Below are positions 17,231-28,747 of a DNA stretch of 64,000 nucleotides, piece after piece. Within the stretch, counting starts at the first letter, position 1, and each line of letters begins with the position of its first letter. The notes beneath the pieces were generated by a model that saw only the letters and a list, made by a program, of their open reading frames with translations, was not told the origin of the DNA and ran no database searches. The stretch is from Hyphomicrobiales bacterium (GTDB lineage: Bacteria; Pseudomonadota; Alphaproteobacteria; Rhizobiales; RI-29): NCBI GenBank assembly GCA_016125495.1, contig WGLQ01000004.1:372001-436000 (forward strand), read 5' to 3'. The position numbers were made by a program, and so were the translations under genes.

Positions 17231-18064
17231 CTATGGCGTCGGCCGGCGACGCAGATGCGCACCTGTTAACGATGCGACAATGCCACGCAGTGTGCGCACT
17301 TCCTGTTCGCTCGGTTCCATGCGCGCGAACATGCTTCTGAGGTTGCGCACCATGCTGGCCCGCTTCTCCGGCGGCTTGAAGAAGCCGCTCTTGTCGAGTT
17401 CCCCCTCGATGTGACCGAAGAAGCCGAGGAGCTCTTGGCGGGTCGCCGGCGGAGAGCCCCTGAGGCGCGGCCCGGAGCCCACGATGCCATCGAAAGTGGT
17501 GTGCCGGCCGAGCCCTTCACCATCCACCAGTTTCCGCCATTCGTAGCCGATGAGCAACACGGTCTGGGCAAGGTTGATGGAAGCGAAGCGCGGATTGACC
17601 GGGGCCATGACGATGGAATCGGCGATTGCCACCTCGTCGTTCTCGAGGCCGGTCCGCTCGGGACCGAACAACACACCGACCCGCTGACCCGCGAGGATCC
17701 GCGAGCGCAAGGCCAGCGCCGCCTCCTCGAGGTCGAGCACGGGCTTGGCCATGTCGCGGGGCCTTGCGGTCGTTGCCACGACGTAATTGAGATTGCCGAC
17801 GGCGCCGGCGACATCGGCGTGCAGGCTGGCCCCGTCGACGATCGAGTCGGCTCCCGACGCCGCGCGGCGTGCGAGTTCATTCGGCCAGCCGTCCCGCGGC
17901 GAAACCAGCGAGAGTCGCTCGAGGCCGAAGTTGGCCATCGCGCGAGCCGCCGCGCCAATGTTGTCGCCGAGCTGCGGGCGAACGAGGATGATGTCCGGGG
18001 TGGTGGGGGCATCGCCACGCCCTTCGGGCGCAGGCGTGCCGGCGGGCGGGCACGGTTCGGTCAT
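17231..18064 (-). CDS. trmJ: tRNA 2'-O-methyltransferase TrmJ (SpoU/SPOUT family)
   Basis: This 277-residue enzyme has the three SPOUT knot motifs: Arg-Pro-Gln-Leu-Gly-Asp-Asn-Ile-Gly-Ala-Ala-Ala-Arg, Gly-Val-Leu-Phe-Gly-Pro-Glu-Arg-Thr-Gly-Leu and Asn-Leu-Ala-Gln-Thr-Val. A C-terminal helical extension is typical of TrmJ. It methylates the ribose at position 32 of tRNA using SAM. TtcA, encoded nearby, also modifies C32, but the two are separate transcripts. Confidence 0.92.
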   Translation of the reverse strand: MTEPCPPAGTPAPEGRGDAPTTPDIILVRPQLGDNIGAAARAMANFGLERLSLVSPRDGWPNELARRAASGADSIVDGASLHADVAGAVGNLNYVVATTARPRDMAKPVLDLEEAALALRSRILAGQRVGVLFGPERTGLENDEVAIADSIVMAPVNPRFASINLAQTVLLIGYEWRKLVDGEGLGRHTTFDGIVGSGPRLRGSPPATRQELLGFFGHIEGELDKSGFFKPPEKRASMVRNLRSMFARMEPSEQEVRTLRGIVASLTGAHLRRRPTP

Positions 18065-18138
18065 GCACGCTGCTATAGATGGCCTCGCATTGGAGGGAAA
18101 GCCGGTCCCATGTTGGGACCGGCGCTGGCGAGGTCGAT

Positions 18139-19182
18139 CTACTGGTTGAGGATGTTGTTGATCGCGTCGGATGAGTTGAGGTTGGGCTTGGGTTCGATCG
18201 GCGTGTTCGCCGGAACGTCGGCGGGCGGCGTGCTGGGCGGTACGGGCGAATAGCCGCCGCCACCGTCGGCCACCAGCAGCTTGGGCCGGAACACGAGGCT
18301 CAGCTGGCGCATCCGCGTGACCTGGGCGGGCGAGAACACACGAAGGCAGGCATCGTCCGAATAGTTCATGAAGTTGGTGATGGAGTCACTGCCCGGCCGG
18401 TGCGGGCAGCTGTCGCGCTCGGTCGGGCAACCGGTGGTCGGCTCGGCCTCGAACGGCGTGTCGTCGATCTGATCGCCGAGCCCGTCGCAGCCGAAGGCGA
18501 AGGTGTGGTGCAGTCCGAGCCAGTGGCCGATCTCGTGCGTCGCGGTCTTGCCGAGCCCATAGGGCGCCGGCCCGCCGGGAAGCGTATCGTAATGCAGCAC
18601 GACACCGTCACGCAGTGGGGTCTCGGCGAGTTCCCAGGGGAATGTGGCAAAGCCGAGCAGGGATTCGCTGTTGCTGCCCGTATAGATGTTGAGGATGGAT
18701 TCCGGGTCGCGGACCAGTGACGACTTGGCTGCCGCCTCGGCCTCCGAGCCGAAGTCCAGATTGAACCACTCGGCCTGCTCGACATACTCGATCCGGTCGA
18801 GCCGGAACGTGAAGCTGGAACCTTCGAAGTCCTTGTTCATGACTGCGACCTGCTCGGCGACTCGCGCCTCGGTCACGCGTCCGTCCGTACCGTTGTGAAT
18901 GACGTTGAACCGGCACGGCACGACGAACTTGGCATTGGCGAAGACGCCGGACTGCTGCTGCACGAGACCTTCGGCACGCTGCACGACGGCCTTGGCGACT
19001 TCGGCGGTCGGCGTTGGCGTGCCGCAGCGCCGCCCTGCCGCCACGAACGCCTGCTGACTGGCGAAGGTTCGCCCACCGAAGGTGAACGATGTGACCTGGG
19101 CGCTGGCAGGCACCACGCCTGCGGTGACCGCGCAGGACGCGCAGGAGACGAGGAAGCGACGACGGGTGAGATGGCTCTTCAT
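18139..19182 (-). CDS. Tat-exported pappalysin-type zinc protease (M43)
   Basis: This 347-residue secreted protease starts with a twin-arginine signal (Thr-Arg-Arg-Arg-Phe-Leu near residue 6). The zinc site is His216-Glu217-X-X-His220-X-X-Gly-X-X-His226 and the Met-turn is Asn-Phe-Met-Asn-Tyr near 270, as in pappalysin-like M43 metallopeptidases. The C-terminal 45 residues are Pro-rich. Start 19182 gives the Tat signal; no strong ribosome site is seen. Export of a folded, metal-loaded protease fits the Tat route. The target is unknown. Confidence 0.87.
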   Translation of the reverse strand: MKSHLTRRRFLVSCASCAVTAGVVPASAQVTSFTFGGRTFASQQAFVAAGRRCGTPTPTAEVAKAVVQRAEGLVQQQSGVFANAKFVVPCRFNVIHNGTDGRVTEARVAEQVAVMNKDFEGSSFTFRLDRIEYVEQAEWFNLDFGSEAEAAAKSSLVRDPESILNIYTGSNSESLLGFATFPWELAETPLRDGVVLHYDTLPGGPAPYGLGKTATHEIGHWLGLHHTFAFGCDGLGDQIDDTPFEAEPTTGCPTERDSCPHRPGSDSITNFMNYSDDACLRVFSPAQVTRMRQLSLVFRPKLLVADGGGGYSPVPPSTPPADVPANTPIEPKPNLNSSDAINNILNQ

Positions 19183-19347
19183 GGGGATCGACCTGTGCGA
19201 GGGACGACGAGTAGTATGCCACGACGGCACGCGAGCGGCATTGCTCCGCATCGATATGGAGCAGCGAGAGCGCGACGGGCCCGGTCGTCCCGCCCGATCC
19301 ATCACGATCCCGGAACGTTGAGCACGAGCCTAGGGGGAGCCACGCCA

Positions 19348-20173: not shown

Positions 20174-21094
20174 TCAGGAGCCGAGCCGCGCTCCGACCGC
20201 GATGCCGGCCGCGCCCGCCACGTCACCCGCCGGGGACTTCTCCCCCTTGCCGAAACGGACACGCTTCATGAGGACCGCCCCGCCCGACGCCGCGACGCGG
20301 ATGCCTTCGTTCGAAACGGAAAGCACCTCGCCGGGTGCCCCGCCCGTCTCACCCTCGATCCGCGCGCTGTCGAAGACTTGCAGCGTCTCGCCCTTCCACG
20401 TGGTCCAGGTTCCCGGCTGCGGGTTGCCCGCACGAATGAGATCGTAGATTTCGTTCGCCGGCCGGGACCAGTCGATCTTGGCCTCGTCGCGCCCGAACCA
20501 GGATTCGTAGCTGCCCTTCGAAAGGTCCTGGACGATGCGCGGCGCGCTGCCGGCCTTCACGAGGTCGAGCGCTTCGATCATCGCATCGACGCCCATCGGA
20601 AAGAGCTTCTTGAAATAGACGTCCCCGAGCGTTTCGTCCGGCCCGATCTCGCACTCCTTCTGCAAGAGGATGGGGCCTTCGTCGAGACCGTCGTCCGGCC
20701 AGAAGATGGTGAGGCCCGTGCGTTTCGCTCCCTTGGCGATTGGCCAGTTGATCGAGGACGGCCCCCGGTGCATCGGCAGCAGTGAGGGATGGTATTGGAA
20801 GGAGCCGAGACGCGGCGCGTTGCGGATGTTCTCCGGCACGAACAGCAGAACGTAGGCCATCATGCAAACGTCCGCATCGAACGAGCGGATGAGCGCCTCG
20901 GCCTCGGGTGTCCGCCAGGACTTCGGTTGATGCACTGGCAGCCCTTTTTCCGCTGCATAGGCCGCAAGCGGGTCGCGGGGCCGGCCCTCCTTGTCGGGTG
21001 CGCCGAACACCCCGACGACATTTTCCCCCCTATCGAGCAGTCGCTCGAGCACCGCCTTGCCGAAGGCCTGCTGTCCGTGCACTACGATTCGCAT
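20174..21094 (-). CDS. 10-formyl-THF hydrolase-like formyltransferase (FDH N-terminal type)
   Basis: This 306-residue protein resembles the hydrolase domain of 10-formyltetrahydrofolate dehydrogenase more than Fmt: Asp-Pro-Leu-Ala-Ala near 41, Tyr-His-Pro-Ser-Leu-Leu-Pro at 101-107, and Phe-Trp-Pro-Asp-Asp-Gly-Leu-Asp near 131-138. His102 and Asp138 correspond to the FDH catalytic pair. The aldehyde dehydrogenase half of FDH is absent. It is last in a one-direction cluster after a formyl-CoA transferase and a TPP lyase that should yield formyl-CoA, so it probably handles the one-carbon product. Whether it uses formyl-THF or formyl-CoA is open. GGAGGAG precedes the ATG. Confidence 0.85.
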   Translation of the reverse strand: MRIVVHGQQAFGKAVLERLLDRGENVVGVFGAPDKEGRPRDPLAAYAAEKGLPVHQPKSWRTPEAEALIRSFDADVCMMAYVLLFVPENIRNAPRLGSFQYHPSLLPMHRGPSSINWPIAKGAKRTGLTIFWPDDGLDEGPILLQKECEIGPDETLGDVYFKKLFPMGVDAMIEALDLVKAGSAPRIVQDLSKGSYESWFGRDEAKIDWSRPANEIYDLIRAGNPQPGTWTTWKGETLQVFDSARIEGETGGAPGEVLSVSNEGIRVAASGGAVLMKRVRFGKGEKSPAGDVAGAAGIAVGARLGS

Positions 21095-21207
21095 GCGCGC
21101 TCCTCCGTCCTGACGAGTCGCCCTCGTTCCCGCCCGGGGCGGGTGGGACGCACCCCTGCCTATCCGTGTGTCGGGAGCGGGCGCCGGAGCGCGCCCCCTG
21201 GAGAACT

Positions 21208-21248
21208 GCCGGCTGCCTTCGGTCTACATGTCACCGTCGGCAGCCGGC
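21208..21248 (-). repeat. Inverted repeat between frc and the formyltransferase-like gene
   Basis: A 10-bp perfect inverted repeat (21208-21217 with 21239-21248) lies in the 202-base gap within the cluster. Without a T-tract it is more likely an mRNA stability or processing element than a full terminator. Confidence 0.45.
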
Positions 21249-21296
21249 CTTGCCAGGGCTGCCCCCCCGAGCGCCCCGGCTGTAACTGGCGCGGCC

Positions 21297-22577
21297 CTAT
21301 TCGGCCGCCGCGCGTGCGGCAACGTGCGTCGCTCCCGCTTCCCGCAGGCGTGCCACGTCCTCGCTGGAATAACCGAGCACCTGGGTGAGGATTTCATCGG
21401 TATGCTCGCCGAGCAGCGGCGAGCGCGTCACCTCGACAGGGCTGTCGGACATCTTGATCGGGCAACCGACGGAGAGGTATTTTCCGCGCTCGGGATGGTC
21501 GACCTCCACGATCGTGCCGGTGGCGCGAAGTCCCTCGTCCTCGGCGATCTCCTTCATTGAAAGGATCGGGCCGACTGGAATGTCGAGGGGGTTGCAGATG
21601 TCCATGACCTCGAACTTGGTCTTGGTCATCGTCCACTGCTCGATGCGCGCGAAGATTTCGTTGAGCTTGTCGAGCCTCTCGTGCGGCTTGGCGTAGCCGG
21701 GCTTGGTCTTCCACTCGGGTTCGCCGATGACGTCGCAAACCTTTTCCCAAACGGCGGCCTGGGTGATGAAATAGGTGTAGGCGTTCGGGTCGGTTTCCCA
21801 ACCCTTGCATTTCAGGATTCGGCCCGGCTGGCCGCCGCCCGAGTCGTTGCCGGCCCGGGGCACCGCATCGCCGAACGGCACGCCCTCGCCGAACTGGGAG
21901 TACTCCTTGAGCGGCCCCTTCTCGATGCGCTGCTGGTCGCGCAGCTTGACGCGGCAGAGGTTGAGCACGCCGTCCTGCATCGGTGCGAGCACGCGCTGGC
22001 CTCGTCCACTCGCCTCGCGCTGGAAGAGCGCGGCCACGATGCCGAGGGCGAGGTGGAGACCCGTGCCGGAATCGCCGATCTGCGCGCCGGTGACGAGCGG
22101 CGGTCCATCCCGGAAACCGGTCGTCGACGCGGCCCCGCCGGCACACTGCGCGACATTCTCGTAGACCTTGCAGTCCTCGTACTTGCCGGGACCGAATCCC
22201 TTGACCGAGGCCATGATCATCCGCGGATTGAGCTCCTGGATGCGTTCCCAGGAAAAGCCCATCCGGTCGAGCGCTCCTGGAGCGAAATTCTCGACCAGCA
22301 CGTCACATGTCTTGACGAGCCGTTCGAGAACCTCCTTGCCCTCCTTCGTCTTGGTATTGACGGTGATGGAGCGCTTGTTGTGGTTCAGCATGGTGAAGTA
22401 GAGGCTGTCGGCGCCCGGCACGTCGACGAGCTGCTTGCGCGTCGCGTCACCCTCGCCCGGCCGCTCGACCTTGATGACGTCGGCCCCGAGCCAACCCAGA
22501 AGCTGCGTGCACGTCGGGCCCGACTGGACATGCGTGAAATCGAGGATGCGGACCCCCTCGAGGGCTTTGGTGGTCAT
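21297..22577 (-). CDS. frc: Formyl-CoA transferase, family III CoA-transferase
   Basis: This 426-residue protein matches formyl-CoA:oxalate CoA-transferase closely over its length. It starts with Leu-Asp-Phe-Thr-His-Val-Gln, has the catalytic Asp169 in Gln-Ile-Gly-Asp-Ser-Gly, and has the Gly-Gly-Gly-Gln-Pro-Gly substrate loop near 250. The position equal to Trp48 of the Oxalobacter enzyme appears to be Gln. The family moves CoA from formyl-CoA to a carboxylic acid, releasing formate. The acceptor may be oxalate or another acid imported by the adjacent Tct system. AGGAG precedes ATG 22577. It follows the lyase gene by 135 bases. Confidence 0.9.
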
Positions 22578-22712
22578 TTGCTGTGCTCCTGCTCGTCGCT
22601 CGCCTGATGGGGAGCGTAAACCCGGTGCCCGCCCCTCCGGGCCACCCGGTGATCGCTGCTTCGGGCGAAAGCCGGCGCCCCGCCGGCCGCTGCCGGCAAG
22701 GCGTTCGGCCCG

Positions 22713-24461
22713 CTACTTGTACATGGTTTGATTTTTCGTCCCCGGTGCGTATTCGTTCGGGTCGATCCAGACGTTGACGACCGCGCACTTGCCGGACTTG
22801 GCGATCGCCTCGCGCGCCCTCTGCAGCGCCGGCCCGATCTGGTCCGCCTCGCGCACCTCCTCGCCGTAGCCGCCGATCATGTGCCCGAACTTGGAGAACT
22901 CCACGTCGCCGAGCTTGTTGCCGATGTCGCCACGATTGGCGCCGTACTTGGCGATCTGGCCATAGCGGATCTGGTTCATCGCCGAATTGTTGCCGATGAC
23001 CGCCAGGAACGGCGCGCCGAAGCGCTGGGCAGTCTCCATGTCGAAGGCGGTCATGCCGAACGAGCCGTCACCGAAGAGGCACATGACCTCCTTGCCCGGA
23101 TGGGCGAGCTTGGCGGCCATGGCAAATCCGGTGCCGACGCCGAGGCTGCCGAGCGCGCCGGGGTCCATCCATTGTCCGGGAGCGCGCGGGCGCACGGCTT
23201 GTGCGGAGATGGTGACGACGTCGCCGCCGTCGCCGATGTAGATGGTGTCCTCACCGAGGAATTCGTTGATCTCCCATGCGAGCCGGTAGGGATGGATCGG
23301 CGAGCGGTTGGACTTGAAGAGCGGCATGAGCTTTTCGAGCTTGCTCTCCTCCATGGCTCGCAGCTGCTTCATCCACTGCAGGCGCTCCTGGCGCGCGCCG
23401 GCATCGAGCCGGCTGTTGGCGGCCGCCGCCACCGCCGAAAGGATGGTTCCGGGATGGCCCGAAAGACCGAACGTGATGTCGCGGTTCTTGCCGACCGTGC
23501 GATAGTCGAGGTCGATCTGCACGAGCGTCGGGGCTGAAATCCGCTTGCCGTAGCCCATCCGGAAGTCGAAGGGCGTGCCGACGATGAGGATGACGTCGGC
23601 ATCCTTGAAGGCTTCCGAGCGGGTGCGGTCGAAATGGTGCGGATCGTCGTTGGGCAGCATGCCGCGGCTGGCACCGTTCATGTAGGCCGGGATGTCGAGC
23701 GCGCGAACGAACGCGGCGGCCTCCTTGTGGCTCTGCGAGGCCCAGACCTGCTGGCCGAGCAGCACGGCCGGGCGCTTGGCCTTGACGAGCACGTCCGCCA
23801 GCCGCTCGATGTCACGCGGATCGCCGAGCGAGCGCACCGAGGCGCGGTAGTGGCCGGGCGCCGGGATGCGCGCTTTCTCGATCGGGATCTCGGCGTCGAG
23901 TACGTCGCGGGGGATTTCGAGGTAGGAGGGACCGTAGGCGCCGGAGAAGCACTCCCGCGCCGCCATGGCGATCATGTCGGCGACCCGGTCGGTGGAAAAG
24001 ACGCCGGACGCGAATTTGGTGATCGGCGTCATCATGTCGACATGCGGCAGGTCCTGCAGCGAGCCCATCTTGTGCTGGGTCAGCGAGGACTGGCCGCCGA
24101 TGTGCAGGATCGGGCTTTCCGAGCGAAACGCGGTGGCGACACCGGTGACCGCATTCGTGCAGCCTGGCCCGGCGGTCGTCACGACGCAGCCGAGCTTGCC
24201 TGTTTGGCGGGCATAGCCGTCGGCGGCATGGGCCGCGACCTGCTCGTGCCGCACGTCGACGATGCGGATGCCCTCGTCGAGGCAGCCATCGTAGATGTCG
24301 ATGATGTGCCCGCCGCAGAGCGTGAAGATCGTATCGACGCCCTCGTTCTTGAGGGCCTTGGCGACGAGATGGCCGCCGGAAATGACGCTGCCGTCCTTGG
24401 TCTTCTGGGCCAGCGTGTCAGTCGCGGTGTCGCGTTTCACTCCAGCACTCCCGTTGGTCAT
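22713..24461 (-). CDS. TPP-dependent lyase, 2-hydroxyacyl-CoA lyase (HACL2/ILVBL) type
   Basis: This 582-residue thiamine-diphosphate enzyme has the cofactor-activating Glu73 in Val-Arg-His-Glu-Gln and the TPP/Mg motif Gly-Asp-Gly-Ser ... Asn-Asn near residues 463-490. The N-terminus (Ile-Phe-Thr-Leu-Cys-Gly-Gly-His-Ile, then Thr-Ala-Gly-Pro-Gly-Cys-Thr-Asn) resembles human ILVBL/HACL2. It does not show the usual motifs of oxalyl-CoA decarboxylase. HACL enzymes split 2-hydroxyacyl-CoA into formyl-CoA and an aldehyde or ketone. Next to frc this would recycle formyl-CoA as CoA donor. Oxalyl-CoA decarboxylation or an acetolactate-synthase-like reaction cannot be excluded. It starts 25 bases after gntR with GGAG. 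Confidence 0.85.
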   Translation of the reverse strand: MTNGSAGVKRDTATDTLAQKTKDGSVISGGHLVAKALKNEGVDTIFTLCGGHIIDIYDGCLDEGIRIVDVRHEQVAAHAADGYARQTGKLGCVVTTAGPGCTNAVTGVATAFRSESPILHIGGQSSLTQHKMGSLQDLPHVDMMTPITKFASGVFSTDRVADMIAMAARECFSGAYGPSYLEIPRDVLDAEIPIEKARIPAPGHYRASVRSLGDPRDIERLADVLVKAKRPAVLLGQQVWASQSHKEAAAFVRALDIPAYMNGASRGMLPNDDPHHFDRTRSEAFKDADVILIVGTPFDFRMGYGKRISAPTLVQIDLDYRTVGKNRDITFGLSGHPGTILSAVAAAANSRLDAGARQERLQWMKQLRAMEESKLEKLMPLFKSNRSPIHPYRLAWEINEFLGEDTIYIGDGGDVVTISAQAVRPRAPGQWMDPGALGSLGVGTGFAMAAKLAHPGKEVMCLFGDGSFGMTAFDMETAQRFGAPFLAVIGNNSAMNQIRYGQIAKYGANRGDIGNKLGDVEFSKFGHMIGGYGEEVREADQIGPALQRAREAIAKSGKCAVVNVWIDPNEYAPGTKNQTMYK

Positions 24462-24486
24462 CGTCGTCTCCGATTGGCAAGCAGCT

Positions 24487-25191
24487 TCAGTCGTTGTCCA
24501 GGCCGTCGAGGTCGAGGTTGCGCTCGACGTGGGCGCGAAGGTTCAGCGTGTGGTCGCGCACGAGGCGCTCCGCGAGTTCGGTGTCGCGCTGCTCGATGGC
24601 TTCGATGATGTGGATGTGATCGACGATCGAGCGGGACGCGCGATCGTTGTCACCGATCGTGCGCGCGCGGATCGCCCGAACGTGCATGAAGAGCCCTTCC
24701 GCCGTGCTCTCGAGGATGGCGCACTTGGAGAGCTTCAGGATCCGCTGATGGAAGGCGATGTTGGCGTCGGAATACTCGTCGAGGACGGCCATCACCCTCT
24801 GGTTCTGGAACCGGTTGAACAGCTCGCGCAGGCTGGCGATTTCCTCGTCGCTGGCCTCGAGCGTGACGAGGCGGGCAGCCATGCTCTCGACCGCCGCCCA
24901 GAGCGTGATCATCTCGAGGATCTCGCGCTTGGATTTGCGCAGGATGAAAACGCCGCGCCGCGGCACCGTGCGCACGAACCCCTCGTGCTCGAGCCGTCCG
25001 AGCGCCTCGCGAAGTGGCGTGCGGCTGACCCCGAAGCGCTTTGAAAGTTCCCGCTCGTCGAGCTGCAGTTGGGCGTCCTTGTGGTAGATGTTCATACTCC
25101 CGATGGCGGCGCGCAGGGCCTCGTAGGTCCTCTGCTTGAGGGTTGCCCCCTGATCGATGGGTACGACGTTCAACTCGAGTGCGGTCGCCAT
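24487..25191 (-). CDS. GntR family regulator, FCD subfamily
   Basis: This 234-residue regulator has an N-terminal winged helix (about 20-85, with Phe-Gly-Val-Ser-Arg-Thr-Pro-Leu-Arg-Glu-Ala-Leu). An all-helical FCD ligand domain follows, with the metal-type ligands Asp-X-X-Phe-His (Asn-Ile-Ala-Phe-His variant) and Asp-His-Ile-His-Ile. FCD regulators usually sense an organic acid from the pathway they control. It sits between the transporter and enzyme genes. Palindromes near TGGTATACCA occur upstream of it (25406) and at 28865 and 29384. Start 25191 has GAGG 8 bases upstream. Confidence 0.92.
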   Translation of the reverse strand: MATALELNVVPIDQGATLKQRTYEALRAAIGSMNIYHKDAQLQLDERELSKRFGVSRTPLREALGRLEHEGFVRTVPRRGVFILRKSKREILEMITLWAAVESMAARLVTLEASDEEIASLRELFNRFQNQRVMAVLDEYSDANIAFHQRILKLSKCAILESTAEGLFMHVRAIRARTIGDNDRASRSIVDHIHIIEAIEQRDTELAERLVRDHTLNLRAHVERNLDLDGLDND

Positions 25192-25503
25192 GTGATCAGC
25201 CTCGAAAATCCCTGTCGGCGCCGGCCCACGGGGCTCGCGTGACATTGTCGTGCACTATTCGCCCTGCCACGGTTCGCCCTGCGCTCGCCAGGCGAGGCGC
25301 GGCGCCCGGTCGTCGCCGCCATCCGCTCGTACGCCCCTGCGCCGCGCGTCGCACGACCGGTCCGGTCACCGCGCCGTTGCATGGTGCCGTGGCAACTCGA
25401 GCGACTGGCATACCATACACCACATAGCGTGGCATCAGGCAAGGTCCGACCGGACGCACCGTCCTGCACCGAGGCGATCGCCGTCCGGCACCCTCGATTG
25501 TGA
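25192..25503. other. Gap between tctA and gntR with an operator-like site
   Basis: This 312-base gap has no gene. It carries the operator-like sequence at 25406-25427, listed separately, and probably a promoter for the gntR-lyase-frc unit. Confidence 0.6.
25406..25427 (-). promoter_or_regulatory. Probable GntR-protein operator upstream of gntR
   Basis: On the minus strand this reads TATGTGGTGTAT followed by TGGTATGCCA, one base away from the perfect TGGTATACCA palindrome found at 28866 and 29385. It lies about 215 bases before gntR, where autoregulation and control of the enzyme genes would act. Confidence 0.5.
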
Positions 25504-27024
25504 TCAGGCTCCGTTGGCGGCAGCGCTTTTCTGGCGCCGACGCCGGAACGCGAGGAACAGCGGGTAGACGAAGAGCGCGATCGCGCAGAGGAAGATCACG
25601 CCCGAGAGGGGGCGCGTGAACAGGGTCGTCCAGTCGCCCCGATCGGCGATCAGCGACTGGCGGAGCGAATTCTCGGCGAGTGGGCCGAGCACGATCGCCA
25701 GCACAAGCGGCGCCATCGGATAGTCGAGCTTGCGCATCAGATAGCCGACCACGCCGAACAGCAGGATGAGCCAGGGGTCGAACATCCGGTTGTCGGGGGC
25801 GTAGCCGCCGATGAAGCAGAGCACGAAGATCATCGGCGCGAGGATCGAAAATGGCGTGCGCAGCACCCAGATGAAGAGTGGAATGAGCGCGAGGTTGAGA
25901 ACGAGCGTCAGGAGGTTGGCGGCATAGAGGCTCGCCGTCAGGCCCCAGACGAACTCGGGCTCGGTCGTGAACAGCAGGGGGCCCGGCGTCAATCCCCAGA
26001 TGATCATGCCGCCGAGCAGGATCGCCGTTGTCGGCGAGCCCGGGATGCCGAGCGTCAGCATCGGCAGCATCGAGCCGGTCGAGGCGGCGTTGTTGGCGCA
26101 TTCCGGGGCGACGACGCCGTTGACCTCGCCCTTGCCGTAGCGGTCCGGATCGTTCGACATCGACTTGGTGAGGCCATAGGCCATGAGCGATCCCGGGGTC
26201 GCGCCGGCGGCGGGCAGGATGCCGACGAAATAGCCGAGGAACGAACTCATCACCATGGTTCGCCCGGAGTCCTTCAGCTGGCGCATGGCATCGAGGAAGC
26301 GGGCGAAATTGTAGGTGTGCGAGGCCATTTGCGCCTTGCCGCGGGAGGTTTCCATCGTCCAGAGCATCTCGCCGATCCCGTAGATGCCGATGGCGAGCAC
26401 GATGAACGAGATGCCTTTGTAGAAGCCCTGCAGGTCGAAGAAGATGAGGCGCGGCCGCCCGGAGATGATGTCGAGGCCGACCGTGGCCAGCACGAGGCCG
26501 AGGAGGATCATGAAGATCGTCTTCGGGATGTCGTCCCCGCTCAATCCCACGAACGTCGCGAAGGCGAGCACCATGAGGGCGAACTCCTCGTGCGTGCCGA
26601 AGCGCAGCGCGAAGTCGGCGAGCGGAGGAGCGAAAAGCGTGAACAGGACGATCGAGATCGTGCCCCCGACGAAGGAGGCGACGGCGGCGGCGACAAGGGC
26701 ATGGTCGGCCTTGCCCTGGAGCGCCAGGGGGCGGCCGTCGAAGGTCGTTGCGACCGCGGTCGAGGCGCCCGGAATGCCGAGCATGATGGAGGAAATCGCG
26801 CCGCCGTACATGGCTCCGTAGTAGATCGCGGCGAGGAAGATGATCGCGGCCGTCGGCGGCACGATGAAGGTGATCGGCAACAGGATGGCGACGCCGTTGA
26901 CCGAGCCGAGCCCAGGCATCGCGCCGATGAAAAGCCCCAGCAGGCAGCCGAGTGCCATCAGGCCGAGATTGAGCGGTTGGAATGCGATGCCGAAGCCGTC
27001 GATGAGGTGGCCGAGCAACTCCAT
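25504..27024 (-). CDS. tctA: Tripartite tricarboxylate transporter, large membrane subunit
   Basis: This 506-residue protein has about twelve membrane helices and the TctA repeated motifs Gly-Ala-Met-Pro-Gly-Leu-Gly (near 33) and Gly-Ile-Leu-Pro-Ala-Ala-Gly-Ala-Thr-Pro-Gly (near 268). It is the permease of a TTT system that takes up carboxylates with a sodium or proton gradient, receiving substrate from TctC. It follows tctB by 91 bases, with GGGGGA before ATG 27024. Confidence 0.94.
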   Translation of the reverse strand: MELLGHLIDGFGIAFQPLNLGLMALGCLLGLFIGAMPGLGSVNGVAILLPITFIVPPTAAIIFLAAIYYGAMYGGAISSIMLGIPGASTAVATTFDGRPLALQGKADHALVAAAVASFVGGTISIVLFTLFAPPLADFALRFGTHEEFALMVLAFATFVGLSGDDIPKTIFMILLGLVLATVGLDIISGRPRLIFFDLQGFYKGISFIVLAIGIYGIGEMLWTMETSRGKAQMASHTYNFARFLDAMRQLKDSGRTMVMSSFLGYFVGILPAAGATPGSLMAYGLTKSMSNDPDRYGKGEVNGVVAPECANNAASTGSMLPMLTLGIPGSPTTAILLGGMIIWGLTPGPLLFTTEPEFVWGLTASLYAANLLTLVLNLALIPLFIWVLRTPFSILAPMIFVLCFIGGYAPDNRMFDPWLILLFGVVGYLMRKLDYPMAPLVLAIVLGPLAENSLRQSLIADRGDWTTLFTRPLSGVIFLCAIALFVYPLFLAFRRRRQKSAAANGA

Positions 27025-27115
27025 TTGACGTCCCCCAAGCGGGCCACCGGGCCCCGTTTACAGGCTGCGCGTCGAGTGGGTGGGCAGCCGGCCGCAGGCC
27101 GATCCGCCGCCCGCC

Positions 27116-27622
27116 TCAGTAGACGAAGATCTTGTAGAGCGGCAGGAAGAACGGCTCCGTGATCCCCTTCGGCAGCAGGATTTTCATGCCTCCCTCGAAG
27201 AGGAGGAAGATTACGACCGGCGTCAGCAGTGAAACCGCGAGGGTCGTTGTGATCGAATGGCGCCCGAGGATGCCGACTTGAAACAGAAGGAAAAGCGTGA
27301 TCGCGACATAGGCCCCGAGCCAATGCGTCAGCGCCAGCATCGCGAAAATCGAGAGGGTCGTGATCCCGACCATGCGCACCGTGTAGGCATCCATGAACGC
27401 GGCACGCGAACGAGTGATGTTCGTCGTTCTCAACAGGCCGCGAACGAAGATGACGATGCAGCAGACGAGCATCCCCGCCGACAGCCAGAACGGCAGCCAG
27501 CCGCTTCCCGGACCCTTGTCGGGGACCCAGTCGATTCGCAGCGGCGGCACTTGGCTGAGGTACATCAGGTAGATCGAGAACAGCCCGAGCACGAGCGCCA
27601 TGACGAGTTCGGCCGCACGCAT
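27116..27622 (-). CDS. tctB: Tripartite tricarboxylate transporter, small membrane subunit
   Basis: This 168-residue protein has four predicted membrane helices and the early Pro-Gly-X-Gly-Trp-Leu-Pro motif (Gly-Ser-Gly-Trp-Leu-Pro) of TctB. It pairs with TctA in the inner membrane. GGGGAGGG precedes ATG 27622, 138 bases after tctC. Confidence 0.92.
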   Translation of the reverse strand: MRAAELVMALVLGLFSIYLMYLSQVPPLRIDWVPDKGPGSGWLPFWLSAGMLVCCIVIFVRGLLRTTNITRSRAAFMDAYTVRMVGITTLSIFAMLALTHWLGAYVAITLFLLFQVGILGRHSITTTLAVSLLTPVVIFLLFEGGMKILLPKGITEPFFLPLYKIFVY

Positions 27623-27760
27623 CGTGCCCTCCCCGAGCTATCGTTCTGATGGGTTGAAGGATGTCACCGCGGTCGTGCGCGCAGACGCGCTTGCCTCGCG
27701 GTATCCGGGGCGACGCGGGTGCGCCGCCCCGAAAGTCTCACTCGGTCCTATGAGCGAATG

Positions 27761-28747
27761 CTACTGGATTTCGCCAGCCGCCTTCAGCATGGAGCGGTGC
27801 TCTTCTCGCGACGAGATGAAGTAGGATTGCAGGTCGTTGCCAGAGAGCCATGCGCACTGCAGCGCTTGCTTCTTGCAGTAGTCCTGCCACTCGGGCGAAT
27901 CGTAGACTTTGCGGAACACGCCTTCATAGTAGGCCCGCACGTCGTCTCCGACGCCGCCCGGCATCACCACGGACCGCTGCATGAAGTAGGTCATGCCGTC
28001 GTGGCCGAGTTCCTTCATGGTGGGAACGTCGTCGAAGCCAGGGATGCGCTCAGGCGTGAAAGCCGCGATCGGGCGGGCCTTGCCTGCCTGATAAAAGCCC
28101 ATCTGCTCGGAGGGATTGTTCACGGTCGAATCCGCATGGCCACCCACGAGCTGCTTGGCCACGTCCCCGCCGCCCTTGAAGGGGATGTAGGTCATCTTGA
28201 GGCCGAACCGGTTTTCGATCATGCCGGTGACGAGCGAATCCTCCTGACCGGTCCCGGTGCCGGCCATTTTCCATCCCTCGCCCTTCGTCTTGGCGGCAGC
28301 GATATATTCCTCCAGGGTCTTGATCGGCGAGTCCGCGTTGACCCAGAGCAGGAAGGTGTCCTCGGCGAGGCGCGCGACGGGGGTCAGTTCCTCGATGTTG
28401 ACGCCGATGCCCGGGTTGCGCAGCGGGGTTGTGTAGTAGCTGTTCAGCGTCGCCATGATGATGTGCGGATTGCCGGCGTTATCCTTGAGATAGCGCAGCG
28501 CGTCCGCGCCCGATCCGCCACCCTTGTTGATCGGGATGAACGGCACGGCGGCGAAATTATTCTTCTCGATGATCGACTGGATGAAGCGGGCGAGCTTGTC
28601 GGCGCCACCACCCTGGCCGGCCATCACCACGAATTCGACGGGCTTCTGCGGCTCCCAGGCGCTCGCGCCATCTGCGCTGAGGCCGGCGAGCCCGAGGGCC
28701 GTGCCAGCCGCCAGTCCTGCACTGAACAGTCGTCGGGATAATTTCAT
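27761..28747 (-). CDS. tctC: Tripartite tricarboxylate transporter, periplasmic binding protein
   Basis: This 328-residue solute-binding protein has a signal sequence over about residues 1-29 (Lys-Leu-Ser-Arg-Arg-Leu-Phe, possibly Tat-type). It also has the TctC/Bug family core: Gly-Gly-Gly-Ala-Asp near 47, Asn-Lys-Gly-Gly-Gly-Ser-Gly near 74, and Pro-Phe-Lys-Gly-Gly-Gly-Asp near 190. Bug proteins bind carboxylates through main-chain contacts, so the ligand cannot be read from sequence. A strong GGAGGAG precedes ATG 28747. It is the first gene of the cluster and has an operator-like palindrome 118-130 bases upstream. Confidence 0.93.
   Translation of the reverse strand: MKLSRRLFSAGLAAGTALGLAGLSADGASAWEPQKPVEFVVMAGQGGGADKLARFIQSIIEKNNFAAVPFIPINKGGGSGADALRYLKDNAGNPHIIMATLNSYYTTPLRNPGIGVNIEELTPVARLAEDTFLLWVNADSPIKTLEEYIAAAKTKGEGWKMAGTGTGQEDSLVTGMIENRFGLKMTYIPFKGGGDVAKQLVGGHADSTVNNPSEQMGFYQAGKARPIAAFTPERIPGFDDVPTMKELGHDGMTYFMQRSVVMPGGVGDDVRAYYEGVFRKVYDSPEWQDYCKKQALQCAWLSGNDLQSYFISSREEHRSMLKAAGEIQ

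Follow-up and report, generated by a model that had tools for sequence, protein, structure and literature searches.

The seven genes tctC-tctB-tctA-gntR-LYA-frc-FTH, found by open reading frame (ORF) analysis at positions 20174-28747 on the minus strand of a 64,000-nucleotide stretch of DNA from a Hyphomicrobiales bacterium (hereafter the window; assembly GCA_016125495.1, contig WGLQ01000004.1, positions 372,001 to 436,000), very probably form an operon for the import and degradation of oxalate. In this operon, LYA, a thiamine diphosphate (ThDP)-dependent enzyme, would serve as an oxalyl-CoA decarboxylase non-orthologous to the canonical enzyme Oxc, and a tripartite tricarboxylate transporter (Tct) would serve as the importer. 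The reading is built on the gene content, the protein families, the clade formed by LYA, the conserved linkage of the genes and the interchange of LYA with Oxc. A first-pass annotation of the same DNA had listed the same genes in this order and on this strand, and ORFs and Pfam matches bear it out; its idea of a formyl-CoA cycle also holds, and the Frc-ThDP enzyme pair with Tct import is conserved in most relatives. By this evidence LYA would work like Oxc without being a member of the Oxc family, and the system would be a variant of the Frc/Oxc cycle.

The Frc of the window passes the equivalog model TIGR03253 for formyl-CoA:oxalate CoA-transferase (713.5 bits, cut-off 504.2), and its association with LYA extends well beyond this genome. 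A scan of genome contigs returned 590 LYA relatives, of which the best 80 (75-86% identical; alpha-, beta-, and gammaproteobacteria) were combined with three plasmid records (Cupriavidus metallidurans, Phyllobacterium, and Streptomyces) into 83 loci, some on short contigs, a gene being counted when a tblastn match fell inside the stretch taken. In 72 of the 83 loci an frc gene of the same orientation lies at most 1.5 kb downstream of LYA, and the LYA-Frc pairing is not due to chance. The co-occurrence of families extends to a GntR regulator (60 loci, in 48 of which it precedes LYA by no more than 600 nt), TctA (34), and FTH (31), and further to the antiporter OxlT (27), Fhs (24), SucC (22), FAH (22), an ADP-forming acyl-CoA ligase (17), PanE (13), and an FDH-like beta gene (9). 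Representatives of OxlT, Fhs, and PanE pass the models for the oxalate/formate antiporter equivalog (TIGR04259, 554 bits, cut-off 335), formate-tetrahydrofolate ligase (NF010030, 921 bits, cut-off 652), and the 2-dehydropantoate 2-reductase subfamily (NF005089, 447 bits, cut-off 223), respectively; the FDH-like representatives, one of them a fragment, fall under the cut-offs of their models, and that of the ADP-forming ligase passes none. The two transporter types alternate (TctA only in 33 loci, OxlT only in 26, both in 1, neither in 23; Fisher p 6e-7, these tests ignoring phylogeny), and their near-complete avoidance of each other suggests that TctABC imports oxalate here, with TctC as the proposed oxalate receptor. 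On the Phyllobacterium plasmid (L101), oxlT-LYA-frc stands with sucCD, a 2-dehydropantoate 2-reductase gene, and, at 17241-18071 of that record, a gene annotated BhcR; BhcR regulates glyoxylate use through the beta-hydroxyaspartate cycle.

The second line of evidence is the replacement of LYA by Oxc, and of Oxc by LYA, in related genomes and operons. The genome that contains the window (99.35% complete) has no canonical Oxc above the cut-off, its top match being LYA itself, and a canonical Oxc over the TIGR03254 cut-off occurs in 5 of the 48 LYA genomes searched, which stem from 50 of the 80 best loci. Among 60 Cupriavidus genomes, LYA is found in 14 and Oxc in 40 (LYA only 13, Oxc only 39, both 1, neither 7; Fisher p 1.8e-7, not corrected for descent), and among 144 Paraburkholderia genomes in 37 and 105, respectively (LYA only 24, Oxc only 92, both 13, neither 15; Fisher p 1.2e-8, likewise uncorrected); for Paraburkholderia, as for the alphaproteobacterial genomes below, scoring was limited to the top 4 to 9 candidates in genomes that had more. 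The genomes with neither enzyme include two Cupriavidus with a split oxc (G093, G096) and one Paraburkholderia in which oxc is broken (G230). That the oxc of C. necator might itself be LYA finds no support, 40 of the 60 Cupriavidus genomes carrying canonical Oxc.

Most telling is the comparison of operons, for which oxc loci were hand-picked rather than drawn at random (14 taken, 8 compared). Between six Cupriavidus oxc loci (L128-L132, L138) and the LYA operons L084 and L100, GntR is 87-91% identical, Frc 85-89%, FAH 77-81%, PanE 83-87% (in view in two of the six), and OxlT 53-91%, and LYA against Oxc reaches only 27-29%. In all six, the Frc that matches at 87-89% stands between GntR and FAH with LYA missing there, and the Frc copy beside oxc matches the LYA-operon Frc at 55%. 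Apart from these two enzymes, the Cupriavidus LYA and oxc operons are orthologous, and the exchange of LYA with Oxc within them suggests that both catalyze one reaction. The regulator type is shared too, as a GntR/FCD regulator is also found near canonical oxc. Three alphaproteobacterial loci (L142, L143, L149), two of them with Fhs, have the order GntR-OXC-Frc-FTH, the same as with LYA, and their Frc is 77-78% identical to that of the window. An intermediate oxc locus (L135) shares GntR at 81-82%, PanE at 77%, and FAH at 63-64%.

A phenotype is on record for one carrier of LYA. In the survey of Kost et al., as given in its Table 1, 58 Burkholderia strains were tested on oxalate and B. tuberum LMG21444 was positive (OX+) (PMC3886118). 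The genome of this strain, now Paraburkholderia tuberum LMG 21444, encodes OxlT, GntR, LYA, and Frc (L066). In its draft sequence, Oxc was not found, the highest score outside LYA being 189 bits (cut-off 739), and neither was a bicupin oxalate decarboxylase; the search did not extend to oxalate oxidase or oxalate oxidoreductase. Since the strain degrades oxalate and no Oxc was found, something must decarboxylate oxalyl-CoA. A bicupin enzyme above its cut-off is present in 2 of the 25 LYA genomes searched (G020, G033). In strain PsJN, growth on oxalate is reported to be lost when oxc is disrupted; the exact PsJN oxc primer occurs in one of the 144 Paraburkholderia genomes (G175), which carries Oxc and lacks LYA, in line with that phenotype. 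In C. necator, deletion of frc-oxc is reported to abolish growth on oxalate, with apbA2 close by (PMC7486775). PodA of P. abietaniphila, 30% identical to the Frc of O. formigenes according to its paper, was set aside.

The enzyme that would stand in for Oxc is a distant one. The first-pass annotation held that the lyase is not of the Oxc type, and scores, residues, and clade all agree. LYA reaches 224 bits with the canonical model TIGR03254 (cut-off 739.4) and 239.9 with the looser NF006721 (cut-off 557), passing neither; it matches 51 NCBIfam models and lies below the cut-off of all 25 displayed. In an alignment of 84 LYA and 9 Oxc rows (26-28% identity between the two), the equivalent of Oxc E56, which belongs to the key residues listed together with Y120, E121, Y483, S553, and R555 in a published account of Oxc (PMC10192776), is kept in 84/84 LYA rows. 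The other positions differ: Y120 and E121 are Leu and Gln in 84/84, Y483 corresponds to Asn (to Ile in another alignment), S553 is Asn in 46, Ala in 35, Arg in 2, and a gap in 1, and R555 is Thr in 83 and a gap in 1. A His-Lys pair precedes the Leu-Gln motif (His 79/84, Lys/Arg 83/84) and may, by inference only, be a candidate for binding the oxalyl carboxylate. In a tree of 14 of the 84 LYA rows and 9 Oxc rows, LYA forms one group (100/100), outside the Oxc clade (100/100) and apart from the rows of the actinobacterial 2-hydroxyacyl-CoA lyase (AcHACL) type; the deeper branching order is uncertain because of long branches in the outgroup. A paralogue in the window's own genome (L087) joins the LYA group weakly (85/66), and two sequences taken as HACL-like (L098, L099) pass NF006721 and group with Oxc, not LYA, in this tree, which holds no certain HACL1 row. 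LYA itself is strongly conserved, the columns of a 22-sequence alignment averaging 85% identity, as expected for one function.

The first-pass annotation suggested a 2-hydroxy acid as a possible substrate, such that Tct would import the acid, Frc would make its CoA ester, and LYA, as a 2-hydroxyacyl-CoA lyase, would cleave it into a carbonyl product and formyl-CoA. This is unlikely, and it was rejected as the lead reading. AcHACL is indeed the nearest solved sequence, and its Leu127 and Gln128 are retained in 84/84 LYA rows. However, the position of the acid/base Glu493 is Ile in 84/84; it is Glu in the AcHACL relatives L125 and L126. LYA also scores 351 bits with the AcHACL-type model NF058623 (cut-off 600), which L125, included as a true relative, passes with 742. 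According to the AcHACL paper, proton transfer by Glu493 is specific to hydroxyacyl cleavage and absent from Oxc catalysis, and the E493A variant retains about one tenth of the rate (PMC8760513); the loss of Glu493, not fatal on its own, therefore leans against a lyase without excluding one. The oxalate-type Frc, the oxalate genes OxlT and PanE in many loci, and the interchange with Oxc all point to oxalate instead. Two plasmids carry other relatives: on one of Cupriavidus basilensis (L126, 2378-5701), a close AcHACL relative (675 bits) lies beside a gene for an AMP-binding protein, with GntR near, and on one of Bosea (L127, 2696-5644), amid MmgE/PrpD genes, a CoA-transferase gene adjoins that of a ThDP enzyme sharing about 36% identity with LYA; the two may be a similar pair that acts on a different compound.

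It is very unlikely that LYA is instead a carboligase within an oxalate operon, joining formyl-CoA, or the carbanion from oxalyl-CoA, to formaldehyde, glyoxylate, or a similar aldehyde to give a C2-C3 unit. ThDP enzymes of the Oxc/HACL group are described as doing so in vitro (PMC8411744), the predicted fold fits glyoxylate carboligase nearly as closely as Oxc, and Fhs or PanE is near in some loci, but the degradation of oxalate by P. tuberum, with no Oxc found, and the exchange with Oxc in an orthologous operon speak against it. The AlphaFold model of LYA gives similar fold matches, with Z scores of 32.7 for 8vzk, 32.6 for E. coli Oxc, 32.0 for glyoxylate carboligase, and 29.2 for AcHACL, and does not tell these enzymes apart; because its mean pLDDT is 74.2, with stretches 125-147 and 573-582 below 50, the model was kept out of the active-site analysis. 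Least credible of all is an acetolactate-synthase-like enzyme of unrelated role that lies in oxalate operons by chance: its best NCBIfam score, 438.6 bits with PRK05858 (named acetolactate synthase), stays under the cut-off of 587, Frc follows LYA in most loci, and the same genome has a true acetolactate synthase (L086; 1093 bits, cut-off 974) elsewhere that falls, on long branches, outside the LYA/Oxc/HACL part of the tree; this identity was rejected.

Several observations weigh against the reading of the operon as one for oxalate and of LYA as its decarboxylase. At the positions of Oxc Y120, E121, Y483, S553, and R555, LYA does not have the Oxc residue (83-84/84), and decarboxylation would therefore need another active-site solution. 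Seven of the 83 loci have room for Frc behind LYA and lack it, and 23 loci show neither TctA nor OxlT within the stretch. The exclusion counts are not phylogeny-corrected, 13/144 Paraburkholderia genomes and 1/60 Cupriavidus genomes hold both enzymes, and two more of the 48 LYA genomes have proteins (523-534 bits) that pass the looser NF006721. Beyond Cupriavidus the operons agree poorly: L133, an oxc locus of the PsJN type, shares only Frc (56-57%) and OxlT (54-69%). The P. tuberum genome, finally, is a draft, with other oxalate enzymes outside the search.

FTH had been described as a stand-alone FDH-like protein, and this is confirmed by solved structures, the hydrolase domain of 10-formyl-tetrahydrofolate (THF) dehydrogenase (FDH) being nearest (E=2.3e-62), ahead of Fmt (7.8e-48). 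The equivalents of His106, Ser108, and Asp142, the triad of the FDH hydrolase domain (PMC6802093), are invariant in 45/45 FTH rows. As reported there, the FDH domain uses 10-formyl-THF to formylate a phosphopantetheine thiol, and a transfer of formyl from 10-formyl-THF to CoA has been proposed for HypX, without direct proof (PMC6802093). These precedents lead to the weaker proposal that FTH plausibly transfers formyl between CoA and tetrahydrofolate.

In 289 alphaproteobacterial genomes, FTH occurs in 21, LYA in 14, and both in 11 (Fisher p 5e-12). In the 10 FTH genomes without LYA, FTH stands beside Frc in four, three of them with oxc, and six have no Frc in the stretch. These six homologues (L144, L145, L147, L148, L150, L151) have dissimilar neighborhoods; ten neighbors scanned in these lone contexts comprise ABC transporters, helicases, hydantoinases, a permease, a ThDP enzyme, and two proteins without a family, and are uninformative as to function. 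In the FTH tree, four oxc-labeled rows (among them L146, whose contig ends inside frc) and three LYA-linked rows fall together in a single clade (100/98), and the oxc/LYA label must have changed at least twice to account for the branches with good support. The 11 of the 83 loci without Frc divide into four that end too early to tell, four with FTH directly after LYA (L006, L010, L011, L033), and three with neither; FTH directly after LYA without frc fits FTH acting on the formyl-CoA product of LYA. FTH and the ADP-forming ligase are rarely together (FTH only in 30 loci, ligase only in 16, both in 1, neither in 36 of 83; Fisher p 0.002). Eleven of the 31 FTH loci, some of these eleven being short, show no Fhs, and four loci have Fhs without FTH.

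The operon would thus operate as follows. TctABC would import oxalate, Frc would convert oxalate and formyl-CoA into oxalyl-CoA and formate, and LYA would decarboxylate oxalyl-CoA to formyl-CoA and CO2, which would close the cycle, with the GntR/FCD protein as the presumed regulator of the operon. The most plausible formyl step is the predicted FTH reaction, 10-formyl-THF + CoA <-> formyl-CoA + THF. Reduction of oxalyl-CoA to glyoxylate frees CoA and would deplete formyl-CoA, which Fhs and FTH could replenish from formate and ATP; alternatively, FTH with Fhs could let formyl-CoA enter the C1 pool, so that the direction may be either. In the other operon type, the ADP-forming ligase or SucCD could refill formyl-CoA. 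The FTH and Fhs module would take the role that the ADP-forming ligase has in sister operons, FTH and this ligase sharing 1 locus of 83. That LYA is a second, separately derived oxalyl-CoA decarboxylase family without nearly all canonical residues, and is combined with an ATP-linked FTH and Fhs module (formyl-CoA <-> 10-formyl-THF <-> formate), is offered as a tentative and somewhat doubtful extension.

Within the window (Table 1), TctA, TctB, and TctC all exceed their Pfam cut-offs and make up a complete Tct set, and Frc and LYA pass those for CoA_transf_3 and for the N, M, and C domains of ThDP enzymes, respectively. The start of tctC at 28747 is the ATG of the first-pass annotation, and the ORF could begin further upstream. 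The absence of a CoA ligase noted earlier stands for the window, where one AMP-forming query, one ADP-forming query, and SucCD found no match; it does not extend to the relatives, given the ADP-forming ligase and SucC in their loci. Fhs and PanE are likewise absent from the window, the rest of the genome not having been searched for Fhs, PanE, or formate dehydrogenase. The operon is closely followed, on its own strand, by an ORF at 18139-19305 that carries a metalloprotease-like HEIGH motif.

Table 1. Genes of the predicted oxalate operon, in order of transcription (positions in the window).
Gene	Positions	Strand	Product	Matches
tctC	27761..28747	-	tripartite tricarboxylate transporter solute-binding protein	PF03401, 101.3 bits (cut-off 27)
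tctB	27116..27622	-	small membrane subunit	PF07331, 52.9 bits (cut-off 29.1)
tctA	25504..27024	-	large membrane subunit	PF01970, 498.2 bits (cut-off 28.9)
gntR	24487..25245	-	GntR/FCD regulator	PF00392 + PF07729, above cut-off
LYA	22713..24461	-	ThDP-dependent enzyme, 582 aa	PF02776/PF00205/PF02775
frc	21297..22577	-	formyl-CoA:oxalate CoA-transferase	TIGR03253; nearest solved YfdW, E=5.4e-169
FTH	20174..21094	-	FDH-hydrolase-like formyltransferase, 306 aa	Formyl_trans N+C; nearest solved FDH hydrolase domain

Should LYA be another oxalyl-CoA decarboxylase, surveys based on oxc, which rest on the canonical family in the accounts consulted (PMC7190790, PMC10192776), would miss oxalate users in alpha-, beta-, and gammaproteobacteria and in Streptomyces, among them a SAR116 record (L030). 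A substrate would also be assigned to one group of Tct transporters, and a new ThDP scaffold would become available for formyl-CoA chemistry of the kind used in synthetic one-carbon routes (PMC8411744). Oxalate CoA-transferase (EC 2.8.3.2) and formyl-CoA hydrolase (EC 3.1.2.10) are described in one of these surveys as lacking a known gene (PMC10192776); the FTH module would be a candidate for formyl-CoA handling, and the missing formyl-CoA step could be tested through FTH. The open PMC texts searched, most subscription papers lying outside the search, contain no account of an LYA-type enzyme as an oxalyl-CoA decarboxylase.

Compared with known systems, FTH belongs to the same family as the N-terminal domain of HypX and the hydrolase domain of ALDH1L1 (FDH) and keeps the His/Ser/Asp set of the FDH domain; unlike both, it stands alone, in oxalate operons, with a predicted formyl reaction. 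AcHACL is the nearest solved sequence to LYA and has the same active-site Leu-Gln pair; LYA differs by the Ile at Glu493, its separate clade, and the lack of an AMP-forming ligase match in the window. The oxalate assimilation of C. necator and M. extorquens, which involves ApbA2 and its homologue PanE2, respectively, gives meaning to the PanE-type reductase that accompanies Frc near LYA in 13/83 loci, although this window has no PanE. The closest parallel is the canonical Frc/Oxc cycle (TIGR03253 + TIGR03254). On the one hand, both have a true Frc, the same type of regulator, a formyl-CoA/oxalyl-CoA logic and, in part of the LYA relatives, OxlT or PanE; LYA is moreover linked, as canonical Oxc is, to frc and to an oxalate transporter, here Tct with its predicted substrate. 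On the other hand, the ThDP enzyme is only 26-28% identical to Oxc and without its key residues, import would be carried out by TctABC, and FTH has been added, as has Fhs in many relatives.

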